A DNA stretch of 9,018 nucleotides from Candidatus Rokuibacteriota bacterium (GTDB lineage: Bacteria > Methylomirabilota > Methylomirabilia > Rokubacteriales > JACPHL01), in NCBI GenBank assembly GCA_016188625.1, contig JACPHL010000102.1:1-9018 (forward strand), written 5' to 3'. This document shows positions 1,159 through 5,988 of the stretch, one piece after another (the first letter of the stretch is position 1; each line of letters starts with the position of its first letter). The notes below the pieces were generated by a model. The model made no database searches. It was given only the letters and a program-made list of their open reading frames with translations, and was not told where the DNA came from. The position numbers were made by a program, and so were the translations under genes.

Positions 1159-3236
1159 TTGGTGCCGCTCGAGCAGAGGCGCTCGGTCTGCCCCCACGAC
1201 TGCCCCTCCGCCTGCGCCCTGGTCGTCACGGTCGAGGACGGCCGGATCGCCCAGGTGGCCGGAGACCCGGAGCATCCGTTCACCCAGGGGGTGATCTGCG
1301 GGAAGGTCCACGCCTACACCGAGCGCGTCTACTCCCCCCTGCGGGTCCTCCACCCGATGCGCCGGGTGGGGGAGAAGGGGAAGGGGGAGTTCGAGCGGAT
1401 CTCCTGGGACGAGGCGATCGAGGAGATCGCCCACCGCTTCCTCCGGGTGATCGCCCAGTGGGGGCCCGAGGCGATCCTCCCCTTCTCCTACGGCGGGACC
1501 CTGGGGCTGGTCCAGTTCTACGCCGGCCACGCCTTCTTCCACGCCCTGGGCGCGAGCCGGCTCGACCGGACCATCTGCGTGAGCACGGCCTACGCCGGCT
1601 GGCGGGCGACGACCGGCGCCGTCACCGGGAACGATGCCGAGCAGCTCGTGGACGCCGACCTCGTCCTCCTCTGGGGGATCAACGCCGCCCACACCCACAT
1701 CAACCTGATGACCTTCGTGAAGCGGGCCCGCGCGCGCGGGGCTTGGATCGTTGCCATCGACCCCTACCGGACCCCACGGCCGTCCAGGCCGACGAGCACC
1801 TCGCGCTCCGCCCGGGGACCGACGCGGCGCTGGCCCTCGGGCTCATGCACGTCCTGACCGCCGAGGATCGCCTGGACCACGACTACCTCGCCCGCGCCAC
1901 GCACGGCTTCGAGGCCCTCCGGGAGCACGTCCGCCAGTACCCGCCCGAGCGGGTCGCGGAGATCACCGGGATCCCGGTCGAGCAGGTCGTCGGGCTGGCC
2001 CGCCGCTACGGCGCGACGCGCGCGAGCTTCATCCGGGTCGGGATCGGGATCTCCCGCCACGAGAACGGGGGGATGGCCTGCCGGACCATCGCCTGCCTCC
2101 CCGCCCTGACCGGGGCCTACGCCCACCCTGCGGGCGGGGCGCTCCTTTCCACCTCGGGGGCCTTCCCGCTGAACTACGCGGCCGTGGAGCGGCCGGACCT
2201 GATGCCCGGGCCGGCGCGGACCATCAACATGATCCACCTCGGGCGGGTCCTGACCGACCCGGACCTCCGCCCGCCCGCCCAGGCCCTCTACGTCTACAAC
2301 TCGAACCCGGCCAGCGTCTGCCCGAACCAGGGACTGGTCCTCCAGGGCCTGGCCCGCGAGGACCTCTTCACCGTCGTCCACGAGCAGATCGAGACCGACA
2401 CCGCCGACTACGCCGATCTCCTCCTCCCCGCGACCACGAGCATGGAGCACCCCGACCTCTACAAGTCCTACGGCCACCTCTACCTCCAGCTCGCCGAGCC
2501 GGTGATCGCCCCCGAGGGCGAGGCCAAGTCGAACTGGGAGGTCTTCCGGCTTCTCGCCCAGGCGATGGGGCTCCGGGACCCCCACTTCAAGAAGACCGAG
2601 GCCGAGCTGATCCAGGAGCTGCTGGCCGTGAAGCACCCGGCCATGGAGGGGATCACCTATGAGCGCCTGGTCGCCGAGCGGTCGGTCAGGCTGAACCTCC
2701 CTCGCCCCTACCGGCCGTTCGCGGACGGCGCCCCGACCCGCTCGGGGAAGATCGAGTTCGTCAACGAGCGCCTCGCCGCCGAGGGGCTCCCGGCGCTGCC
2801 CACCCATATCTCGCTCCGGGAGGGGCCGGACAACCCCGAGGTGGCGGCCCGCTACCCGCTCCAGTGCATCGTCCCCCCGAACCGCTTCTTCCTCAACTCG
2901 AGCTTCAGCCAGTCGAAGCTCCTCCGGGCGCGCCAGGGCGGCCCGGCGGTCTTCCTCCACCCCGCGGACGCCGAGCATCGCGGGATCCTCCCCGGCGAGC
3001 AGGTCCGGGTCTTCAACGACCGGGGCTCGGCCCTGTTCACCGCCGTCCTGACCGAGGAGACCCGCCCCGGGCTCGCGGTCATCGAGGGGATCTGGTGGCA
3101 CAAGCACATGCCGGGCAGCCGGGGGGTGAACGTCCTGACCTCGGATCGCTGCACCGATATGGGCGGAGGGCCGGTTTTCCACAGCAATATGGTCGAGGTC
3201 GAGCGGGCCGCCGGTTTCAATCCAACAATTCGCTGA
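1159..3236 (+). CDS. Molybdopterin oxidoreductase (DMSO-reductase superfamily, [4Fe-4S]), frameshifted near 1772
   Basis: Catalytic subunit-like bis-MGD molybdenum or tungsten oxidoreductase; substrate unknown. Cys11, Cys15, Cys19 and Cys47 (CX3CX3CX27C) form the N-terminal [4Fe-4S] site. The molybdopterin-binding region follows, with SWDEAIEEIA, DRTIC and the GND/DADLVLLWG nucleotide-binding stretch. The C-terminal dinucleotide-binding domain spans about residues 570-690 (GEQVRVFNDRG; GGPVFHSNMVEVE). It most resembles uncharacterised stand-alone MopB-type proteins; the metal ligand cannot be assigned. There is no twin-arginine signal, so it is probably cytoplasmic. Codons run in one frame from 1159 (TTG; or GTG 1162) to about 1773, then continue in the -1 frame to TGA at 3234-3236. 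Adding one C to the CCCC run at 1772-1775 restores a 692-residue protein. As written, the first frame stops at 1857. The coiled-coil gene starts 12 nt downstream. No electron-transfer subunit is visible nearby. Confidence 0.88.
1771..1776 (+). other. Frameshift site (one base missing in a C run)
   Basis: The conserved segment IDPYRTP is read in the first frame up to ACC at 1771-1773. The following TAVQADEHLALRPGTDAAL is read only in the -1 frame from 1776. Inserting one C in 1772-1775 joins them exactly, as family members read. Sequencing error, true mutation and, less likely, recoding all remain possible. Confidence 0.85.
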
Positions 3237-3248
3237 CTCGATGCAACC

Positions 3249-3707
3249 ATGAGGCGCCGAGCCTTGCGTGCCGACTCATCGTCCCAGGAAGCCCGGCTCC
3301 TTGAGCGGGAGACGCGCCAGCTTAAGGAGACCATTGCGGCCTTGCGCGAGGCGCTGGAGCAAGCGAAGGCCGAACAGGAGGCAGCCGTGGCCAGGGTCGT
3401 TGCCGAGTCCAGCCAGGAGATCGGCCAGCTGAATGCCGCCATCCGGGCGCTGCGCGAGGAGCTGGAGAAACTCCGGCTCGAAAAGGACCGGGAGGTCCAG
3501 GAGGCCCTGGCATCCGGCCACGCCGAGTGCCAGCACCTGCAGGCAACCATCCGGGCGCTGCGCGAGGAGCTGGAGCTGGGGAAGATCTTGCACGAGGAGG
3601 CGCTGCACAAGGTGGGGCGCGCCCACCGCGACGAGATGGCCCAGCTGGAGCAGACCATCGTCGCGCTGCGGGAGAGATTGCGAGCGAGCCATGGCCAGAA
3701 AGATTGA
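3249..3707 (+). CDS. Small coiled-coil protein built from 36-residue repeats
   Basis: Protein of 152 residues, not recognised as a named family. After a basic 24-residue N-terminus it consists of three exact-length 36-residue repeats (residues 25-60, 61-96, 97-132) and a partial fourth (133-152). Each begins with L-x-x-(T/A)-I-x-A-L-R-E-x-L-E or a close variant, with hydrophobics at repeat positions 1, 5, 8 and 12, as in coiled coils. The rest is Glu/Lys/Arg/Gln-rich. It has no signal peptide, membrane segment or proline, so a long soluble helix is likely. Thirty-six residues equals ten alpha-helical turns. ATG 3249 has no clear Shine-Dalgarno and lies 12 nt after the Mo-enzyme stop; translational coupling is likely. 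The 3' end overlaps the cyclase start by 17 nt. By context it may oligomerise with, tether or regulate the cyclase. The coding call is firm; the function is inference. Confidence 0.82.
   Translation: MRRRALRADSSSQEARLLERETRQLKETIAALREALEQAKAEQEAAVARVVAESSQEIGQLNAAIRALREELEKLRLEKDREVQEALASGHAECQHLQATIRALREELELGKILHEEALHKVGRAHRDEMAQLEQTIVALRERLRASHGQKD
3321..3707 (+). repeat. 108-bp in-frame tandem repeat inside the coiled-coil gene (3.6 copies)
   Basis: Units at 3321-3428, 3429-3536, 3537-3644 and partial 3645-3707. The conserved core is the first 39 bases of each unit. Between units 2 and 3 a 29-bp stretch is identical (3439-3467 and 3547-3575), while the rest of each unit has diverged. The period is exactly 36 codons with no indel between copies. 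Confidence 0.85.
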
Positions 3708-5988
3708 GCGAGTCGCCACGAGACGGTCGCGCAACCGGTCAGCGAAGCAGGCCGGCGAGAAACTCTCTTACGCCGAGATCTTGCTCCGGGTCACGCAACG
3801 CGTGGCCGGGGCGGAGAATCTCGACGGGCAGCTCAAGGCGCTGCTGGAGATCGCGACGCAGGTCCTCGGGTGCGATCGGAGCTCCCTGTTCCTCAACGAT
3901 CCGGAGACGAACGAGCTCTACTCGCGGGTGGCCCAGGGGAATCTCAAGCGGGAGATCCGGATCCTGAATCATACGGGGATCGCCGGCCATGTGTTCGGCA
4001 CCGGCCGGGGCCTGATCGTGGAGGACGCCTACGCGGACCGGCGATTCAACCGGTCGATCGACGAGCAAACCGGCTACCGGACGCGAAACACCGCCTGCGC
4101 GCCGATCAAGACGGTGAAGGGGGAGGTCATCGGCGCCATCGAGGCCCTGAACAAAAAGGGAGGCCCGTTCCTCCCCGGGGATCTGGAGTGTCTCGAGGCC
4201 ATGGCGACCCACGCGGCGGCCTTCCTCCAGCGCACCCTCTTCCTTGAGAGGACCGAACGGGAACGCCAACGCGAATCGGAGTTCATGAGCGTGGTCTCGG
4301 AGATCTCCTCGGAGATCCAGCTCGGCGCTCTGCTGCAGAAGATCATGGCCACCGTGACCAAGATCCTCAACGCCGAGCGGTCAACGCTGTTCGTCAACGA
4401 CGAGAAGACCAACCAGCTGTACACCGAGGTCGGGGAGGGTCTGGGAGCCATCCAGATCCGCTTCCCCAACCATCTGGGCATCGCGGGCTCGGTCTTCACC
4501 TCGGGGCAGTCGATCAACATTCCCCACGCCTATGCCGACCTCCGTTTCAACCCGGAGTTCGACAAAAAGACGGGATTCTTCACTCGTTCGATTCTCTGCA
4601 CGCCGGTCGTGAACAAGGACGGGAAGACCATCGGCGCGACGCAGGCGCTCAACAAGCGCGGAGGCCCCTTCACGGCGGAGGATGAGGCGCGCCTCAAGGC
4701 GTTCACCGCGCAGATCTCGATGGCCCTGGAGCACGCCAAGCTCTTCGACGAAGTCCAGAACATGAAGAACTATAACGAGGCGATGCTGGAGTCCATGTCG
4801 AACGGCGTGATCACGATCGATGAAGAGGAAAAGATCGTGACGTGCAACACGGCGGGCCTGCGCATCACCCGCACGACCCCGGAGGAGATCCTGCGGAAGC
4901 CGGTCGAAGCATTCTTTACCGGTGAAAATCACTGGCTCGTAGAGCGCCAGAGGCAGGTGGAGCAAACGGGCAAGTCCGAGGTGGTCATGGACGCGGAGAT
5001 GGAATTCGGCGGCGAGAAGGTGTCGGTGAACGCCGCCATCCTCCCGCTGATCAGCGTGAAGCAGAAGAAGCTGGGCACCATGGTCATGCTGGAGGACATC
5101 AGCGAGGAGAAGCGGATCAAGGGCACGATGGCGCGCTACATGGACCCGGCCATCGCCGATCAACTCCTGGCGCGCGGACAGGACATGCTCGGGGGCGTCA
5201 GCAGCACGGTCACGGTCCTGTTCTCCGACGTGCGCAGCTTTACGACGGTGACCGAGCAACTCGGGGCCCAGGGCACGGTCTCGCTCCTGAACGAGTACTT
5301 CACGCTCATGGTGGACTGCATCCAGCGCGAGGGCGGCATGCTGGACAAATTCATCGGGGACGCGATCATGGCGGCCTTCGGGGTTCCGGTGGCGCACGAG
5401 GACGACGAGGATCGGGCGGTGCGGGCCGCGGTCTCGATGATTCGCGAGCTGGCCCTGCTCAACCGGGCCCGGGCGAGCCGCGGGCAAAAGCCGGTGGAGA
5501 TCGGCATAGGGATCAATACCGACGAGGTGGTGTCAGGGAACATCGGCTCGCCGAAGCGGATGAACTACACCATCATCGGGGACGGGGTCAATCTGGCGGC
5601 GCGCCTGGAGACCGCCAACAAGCAGTACGGCACCCGCATCCTGGTGAGCGAGTACACGTACAAAAAATTGCGCGGCACCTACCGGGGCCGGGAGGTCGAC
5701 CGGGTGGTCGTGCAGGGGAAGACGGAACCGGTGGTGATGTATGAGATCCTGGACTATCACACCGAAGAGACCTTCCCCAACCTGATGGAGGCCCTCAACC
5801 AGTTCAAGTATGGCCTGTCGGAGTATCGTAAGCAGCGCTGGGATCAGGCGGTAGGGGCGTTCCGCGAAGCGCTCCGCCTCAATCCGGCGGACAAGGTCTC
5901 GGAGATGTACAGCGAACGCTGCGAGTACTTCAGGGAGCACCCGCCAGGGGAGAGCTGGGACGGAACCTGGGTCATGAAGACCAAATGA
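3691..5988 (+). CDS. Class III adenylate cyclase, GAF-GAF-PAS-cyclase-TPR architecture (CyaB-like)
   Basis: Predicted soluble enzyme of 765 residues making cAMP from ATP. Domains: GAF1 about 44-185, GAF2 about 205-350, PAS-like about 362-475, cyclase homology domain about 500-690, TPR-like tail about 705-745. Metal-binding aspartates are D513 (FSDVRSFT) and D557 (KFIGDAIMA). K553 and T627 match the adenine-specifying Lys/Thr of class IIIb cyclases such as Anabaena CyaB1. N634 and R638 are the transition-state pair. GAF2 has a complete NKFDE motif (N321, K322, F327, D331, E332), typical of cyclic-nucleotide-binding GAFs; GAF1 has N154, K155, F160 and D164 but Leu165 for Glu. G is replaced by D at 611 in the usual INTG segment. 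ATG 3691 was chosen because the frame upstream only translates the coiled-coil gene out of frame. There is no good Shine-Dalgarno, so coupling through the 17-nt overlap is likely. The region is visibly less GC-rich than its neighbours. Confidence 0.93.
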   Translation: MARKIERVATRRSRNRSAKQAGEKLSYAEILLRVTQRVAGAENLDGQLKALLEIATQVLGCDRSSLFLNDPETNELYSRVAQGNLKREIRILNHTGIAGHVFGTGRGLIVEDAYADRRFNRSIDEQTGYRTRNTACAPIKTVKGEVIGAIEALNKKGGPFLPGDLECLEAMATHAAAFLQRTLFLERTERERQRESEFMSVVSEISSEIQLGALLQKIMATVTKILNAERSTLFVNDEKTNQLYTEVGEGLGAIQIRFPNHLGIAGSVFTSGQSINIPHAYADLRFNPEFDKKTGFFTRSILCTPVVNKDGKTIGATQALNKRGGPFTAEDEARLKAFTAQISMALEHAKLFDEVQNMKNYNEAMLESMSNGVITIDEEEKIVTCNTAGLRITRTTPEEILRKPVEAFFTGENHWLVERQRQVEQTGKSEVVMDAEMEFGGEKVSVNAAILPLISVKQKKLGTMVMLEDISEEKRIKGTMARYMDPAIADQLLARGQDMLGGVSSTVTVLFSDVRSFTTVTEQLGAQGTVSLLNEYFTLMVDCIQREGGMLDKFIGDAIMAAFGVPVAHEDDEDRAVRAAVSMIRELALLNRARASRGQKPVEIGIGINTDEVVSGNIGSPKRMNYTIIGDGVNLAARLETANKQYGTRILVSEYTYKKLRGTYRGREVDRVVVQGKTEPVVMYEILDYHTEETFPNLMEALNQFKYGLSEYRKQRWDQAVGAFREALRLNPADKVSEMYSERCEYFREHPPGESWDGTWVMKTK

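Follow-up and report, generated by a model that had tools for sequence, protein, structure and literature searches.

In the window, the 9,018-nt stretch of DNA analyzed here (contig C222 of a 344-contig, 2.6 Mb genome), a class III adenylate cyclase gene was preceded by the gene of a rod-like helical protein built from 36-residue units. The rod and the rod-bearing cyclase almost certainly work together, because the rod preceded the cyclase in nearly every genome that contained this cyclase. Judging from sequence and gene order, there is about an even chance that the rod is a modular scaffold or regulator, probably a dimer, that is dedicated to the CyaB1-like cyclase and binds it to form one signalling module.

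The three units of the window rod opened with LKETIAALRE (nt 3321), LNAAIRALRE (nt 3429), and LQATIRALRE (nt 3537), and the partial unit with LEQTIVALRE (nt 3645). The conserved segment and short tail of the partial unit formed the same C-terminal end in nearly all members of the rod family. When the rod was compared with itself at a lag of 36 residues, 35 of 116 positions were identical, a level that 2000 shuffles, each scored at lags of 5 to 79, never reached. The repeat, which had been called exact, is exact in length and not in sequence. A unit profile built from other lineages only, leaving out the window rod and its three closest relatives, recovered the identical three units with scores of 52.6, 40.5, and 37.0 bits, while no unit in shuffled rod proteins scored above 8 bits. 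Nucleotide differences between the rod genes of the window and locus L009 were 45, 28, and 56 at codon positions 1, 2, and 3, respectively, and the codon-position differences to close relatives fit a translated rod gene. Translation, profile, and shuffles thus confirmed three 36-residue units and a partial fourth at the ORF of 3249–3707, as claimed in the original prediction. The claimed gene overlap of 17 nt was also found, with the rod stop at 3707 and the cyclase ATG at 3691.

Table 1. Coordinates of the rod gene, its units, and the cyclase gene in the window
Feature	Position	Strand	Description
Rod protein gene	3249..3707	+	152 aa; short N-terminal cap, three 36-residue units, partial last unit
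Unit 1: LKETIAALREALEQAKAEQEAAVARVVAESSQEIGQ	3321..3428	+	Profile search
Unit 2: LNAAIRALREELEKLRLEKDREVQEALASGHAECQH	3429..3536	+	Profile search
Unit 3: LQATIRALREELELGKILHEEALHKVGRAHRDEMAQ	3537..3644	+	Profile search
Partial fourth unit: LEQTIVALRERLRASHGQKD	3645..3704	+	20 residues up to the stop; conserved segment, then short tail
Rod/cyclase gene overlap, 17 nt	3691..3707	+	ORF ends
Adenylate cyclase gene	3691..5988	+	GAF (44–177), second GAF, PAS (363–470), class III catalytic (505–684)
Disordered basic N-terminal tail of cyclase, residues 1–25	3691..3765	+	Model pLDDT <50; candidate docking site

The 77 rod proteins from script-detected loci, ~105–340 aa in size, contained 306 scored units with the consensus LKxTVxALRDELExARIEKDxAVQxAVAAANDEIAQ. 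Residue Arg9 was present in 99% of units, Glu33 in 91%, Glu13 in 89%, and Gln36 in 86%, and residues Leu1, Leu8, and Leu12 in ~90% or more. The copy-number survey suggested in the original prediction gave 2 (n=8), 3 (n=25), 4 (n=15), 5 (n=23), 6 (n=3), 7 (n=2), and 8 (n=1) full copies per rod, and the spacing between successive units was exactly 36 in 229 of 229 cases. A quick tree of the cyclases requires at least 27 changes in copy number, and sister taxa had unlike counts (L014 with 3 and L052 with 2; L057 with 3 and L063 with 4). When compared with the closest relatives, the rod was 60–64% identical and the cyclase 82%; by this measure, evolution has been faster in the rod. Therefore, selection keeps the register and the face of the rod, not its length, and for this reason a modular scaffold was preferred over a ruler.

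The hydrophobic period of the rod units was 3.60 residues, with a power of 0.046 compared with 0.002 at 3.5, and the rod did not follow the 3.5-residue period throughout of a canonical heptad coiled coil. Each 36-residue unit is exactly ten helical turns, and therefore every unit presents an identical face. The core positions were 34, 1, 5, 8, 12, 15, 19, 23, 26, and 30, of which 15 (Ala or Leu) and 19 (Lys or Arg) were weaker. The predicted core steps, 3-4-3-4-3-4-4-3-4-4, equal two heptads plus two hendecads; this arithmetic, put forward in the original prediction, agreed with the hydrophobic pattern seen throughout the family and with the period of 3.6. The structure of the rod alone, which had been proposed as a check, was modelled by AlphaFold2 with 23 sequences as a single helix of 148 residues (residues 2–149; mean pLDDT 94.4). 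The model is a monomer and carries no information on the oligomer. The length of the modelled rod was about 22 nm at 1.5 Å per residue.

The conserved part of the unit contained Ile, Val, or Leu at position a and Leu at position d. The i to i′+5 pairs Glu33–Lys2′ and Glu11–Arg16′ were attractive in 68% and 42% of cases, respectively, and repulsive in 2% and 3%; since both involve conserved columns, they do not count as independent statistical tests. By the rules of coiled coils, the a and d residues together with these pairs are the pattern expected of a parallel in-register dimer, and a two-stranded coiled coil with parallel helices is the most likely form of the rod. In addition, ~95% of units (attractive less repulsive cases) had Arg9 and Glu13 positioned to pair within the helix as i to i+4. 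The rod family was acidic, with a mean net charge of −6.8.

The cyclase had a TPR-like segment at the C-terminus in addition to the domains of Table 1. Its model had a pTM of 0.41, so only local features were used. The N-terminal tail had a mean net charge of +4.8, and 64 of 67 members of the family had a net positive tail. Residues Asp513, Asp557, Lys553, Asn634, and Arg638 were invariant in 44 cyclase sequences, and we take them to play the class III catalytic roles of the metal-binding Asp pair, the purine-binding Lys, and the transition-state Asn and Arg. The NKFDE signature of the second GAF domain was intact (N321-K322...F327...D331-E332), and residues Asn321, Phe327, Asp331, and Glu332 were invariant in the same number of sequences. 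In PMC4411481, NKFDE is given as the mark of cyclic-nucleotide-binding GAF domains, and cAMP bound by the GAF domains of CyaB2 is described as activating the enzyme. Because the second GAF domain bears this signature, the tandem GAF domains of the window cyclase probably sense a cyclic nucleotide, and the precedent of CyaB2 suggests cAMP-activated GAF domains in cyclases of this type. A C-terminal motif, PPxxWDGVWxMxSK (window about 5943–5988), was kept in rod-bearing cyclases, and a similar form also occurred in rod-less cyclases.

The cyclase is soluble, CyaB1-like, and of an already known kind. It shared the tandem GAF and class III catalytic domains of Anabaena CyaB1 and CyaB2, and its GAF-GAF-(PAS)-class III architecture, second-GAF NKFDE, and catalytic residues all matched those of CyaB1/CyaB2-like enzymes. 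The best PDB matches included the tandem-GAF structure 1ykd and the catalytic structures 2w01 and 3r5g. However, the window-type cyclase has a separate helical rod gene upstream, while the passages of PMC4411481 consulted mention no partner rod. On the quick tree, the rod-bearing cyclases formed one clade (SH-aLRT 100), outside of which were membrane-anchored single-GAF cyclases and soluble rod-less GAF-GAF-PAS cyclases. Both kinds have catalytic and sensory domains related to those of the window cyclase, and the upstream DNA contained no rod gene either in the membrane-anchored GAF-PAS enzymes (L005 and L006) or in the soluble ones (L126–L128). The existence of the latter indicates that the GAF-GAF-PAS architecture does not need the rod, which counts against the proposed module.

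From 84,980 species genomes scanned, 80 loci were retained, with cyclases 61–82% identical to that of the window. Together with the window and two genomes of the same order, each with a 59% identical cyclase and a 36-periodic helical ORF upstream, 83 loci were examined. The rod ORF was directly upstream of the cyclase in 77 of the 83 loci by script. In two others (L050 and L071) the rod C-terminal end was visible upstream before the contig stopped, and in three (L020, L046, and L085) less than 60 nt lay upstream of the cyclase, which was not readable. Of the 80 loci with readable upstream DNA, 79 therefore had the rod ahead of the cyclase, as did a further truncated relative (L091). The outcome named in the original prediction as contrary to it, related cyclases with no homologous small coiled-coil ORF beside them, did not occur. 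The sole readable locus with a cyclase apparently lacking a rod directly upstream was L078 (1–300), a case against the proposed module; it had 300 nt of upstream DNA, on a contig that is short and possibly misassembled. The pair was found in records of Alpha-, Beta-, Gamma-, and Deltaproteobacteria, Scalindua, Acidobacteria, Nitrospirae, and Opitutaceae, and most of the loci were from metagenome-assembled genomes. With start codons picked by script, the two genes overlapped in 45 of 77 loci and were separated by no more than 30 nt in 29 more.

Co-occurrence was compared in two even draws of genomes. Of 250 genomes from the order of Sulfurisoma, with the cyclase counted at E 1e-250, 17 contained the rod and 20 the cyclase; each of the 17 rod genes adjoined a cyclase gene of the same strand, and the rod never occurred in a genome without the cyclase (hypergeometric P about 1e-23, phylogenetic relatedness ignored). 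The cyclases of the three cyclase-only genomes had the lowest scores among full-length matches, differed at the N-terminus, and grouped apart as a clade of their own. In 199 genomes of one alphaproteobacterial order, the rod was present in 88, the cyclase in 87, and both in 85. The five mismatches (G439, G490, G501, G522, and G525) were all at contig ends, and in G439 and G490 the cyclase start was cut by the contig end. A few pairs were split over different contigs, likewise at contig ends, according to tables read by eye. Two alphaproteobacterial genomes contained a divergent 36-periodic protein remote from any cyclase, which counts against the proposed module.

No third gene recurred in more than 18 of the 83 loci, shadow ORFs of the rod and cyclase aside, and a wider conserved operon was rejected on this ground. 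No plasmid carried the cyclase at E 1e-100. No rod–cyclase fusion was found, another point against the proposed module; fusion of the rod with the cyclase or with a different protein was rejected, the 1018-aa frame in L072 being a read-through ahead of the start codon. The pair in L077, a record titled as a Klebsiella pneumoniae MAG, grouped with betaproteobacterial ones, and the organism name looks wrong.

In the proposed mechanism, the rod and cyclase genes would constitute a single signalling module. The rod would be a straight acidic helix, in which every unit repeats one ladder of Arg, Glu, and Gln residues ~5.4 nm apart. It would bind the cyclase dimer, probably through the basic disordered N-terminal tail as the putative docking site, for which the opposite charges of rod and tail are a weak argument. 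Once bound, the rod might keep a single cyclase or a group of them at a defined position or in a defined array, or it might bias cyclase activity. The number of units would set the size or valency and be free to drift, with the 36-residue register fixed. More tentatively, the units could be equivalent docking sites, such that gain or loss of whole units would set the number of cyclases or effectors gathered. If so, the rod would represent a widespread, undescribed bacterial cAMP-signalling scaffold, a functional analogue of a cyclase-anchoring protein. Class III cyclases are usually explained through domains inside the enzyme; if a separate and exclusive helical partner is retained in several phyla, then a subunit or scaffold has been missing for a whole clade of cAMP enzymes. 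Furthermore, rods with 2 to 8 units of equal length are a natural series for the effect of repeat number and register on coiled-coil function.

The original prediction had spoken of a dedicated scaffold or ruler. Conserved adjacency, gene overlap, and exclusive co-occurrence strongly supported the dedicated helical partner. The invariant unit length and the straight modelled helix would suit a ruler, in which rod length fixes the distance from the cyclase to a partner. However, the range of copy numbers, the frequency of their change on the tree, and the unlike sister taxa make this very unlikely, and a fixed-length ruler was rejected as the main reading because copy number varies so widely. 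A dimeric rod could instead act as an allosteric stalk, which attaches to the GAF domains and the helices at the N-terminus and turns the cyclase on or off, with the repeats serving for stability only. Class III cyclases are dimeric, matching the predicted parallel dimer, and the rod pairs with one cyclase clade. Against this, Arg9, Glu13, Glu33, and Gln36 were kept in every unit and not in one terminal segment, which suggests that all units matter; we consider such a switch possible, though rather doubtful.

The translational symmetry by 36-residue steps would also allow rods to stagger by multiples of 36 residues and self-assemble into filaments resembling a cytoskeleton, as for FilP or Scy, and such filaments would position the cyclase within the cell. 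The precedent is Scy of Streptomyces, with a non-heptad coiled-coil repeat of 51 residues in 14 turns that forms higher-order structures (PMC3718342). The rod proteins, however, are short and have no head or tail domain, and we regard a filament as unlikely. Scy/FilP and the rod resemble each other as long coiled coils with a non-heptad repeat that keeps its length, whereas the rod has 36 residues in 10 turns and is paired with a cyclase; its invariable spacing differed from the 51-residue repeat of Scy/FilP (CC51). Least probable by far is that the upstream ORF only couples or tunes translation of the cyclase. The overlap or near-overlap of the genes in 74 of 77 loci agrees with such a leader, but residue-level conservation was strong in every unit across phyla, and a leader needs no conserved protein. 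The modular scaffold or regulator was retained as the preferred reading.

The window rod scored under every cut-off of the curated Pfam and NCBIfam families. Members of the rod family matched scattered, unrelated coiled-coil models, the same one in at most 11 of 23, and naming the rod from these generic weak matches was rejected. No PDB sequence matched the rod family profile at E 0.01, and the open-licence papers searched contained neither a 36-residue coiled-coil repeat nor any coiled-coil gene upstream of a cyclase. With an enzyme of known kind and a rod that matched no curated family consistently, and no PDB entry or publication in these searches, the locus therefore combines a known cyclase type with an apparently undescribed partner; the new part is the rod family, which is obligate-looking. 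Two divergent proteins, in L129 (3189–4100, − strand) and L130 (342–1463, + strand), had LRDxLE helical repeats that look 36-periodic. Their N-terminal part resembled an Ig/cadherin-like domain by eye, with no Pfam match, and no cyclase was seen alongside in the stretches fetched; they are possibly a second use of the 36-residue unit.

The cyclases nearest to that of the window were from L009–L011, labelled Deltaproteobacteria (82% identical), compared with 59% within its own order, and no flanking genes were shared with the window within the stretches compared. Because the nearest cyclases lie outside its own order and the flanks differ, the 9-kb contig may reflect either horizontal transfer or mis-binning. 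Upstream of the rod, a molybdopterin oxidoreductase gene (1159–3236, + strand) appeared split over two frames near 1750, the ORF of 1159–1857 being the N-terminal part and the frame ending at 3236 the remainder; the split appears to be a frameshift or sequencing error. The oxidoreductase stop lay 12 nt before the rod gene, so that oxidoreductase, rod, and cyclase may be co-transcribed, in the window locus only.
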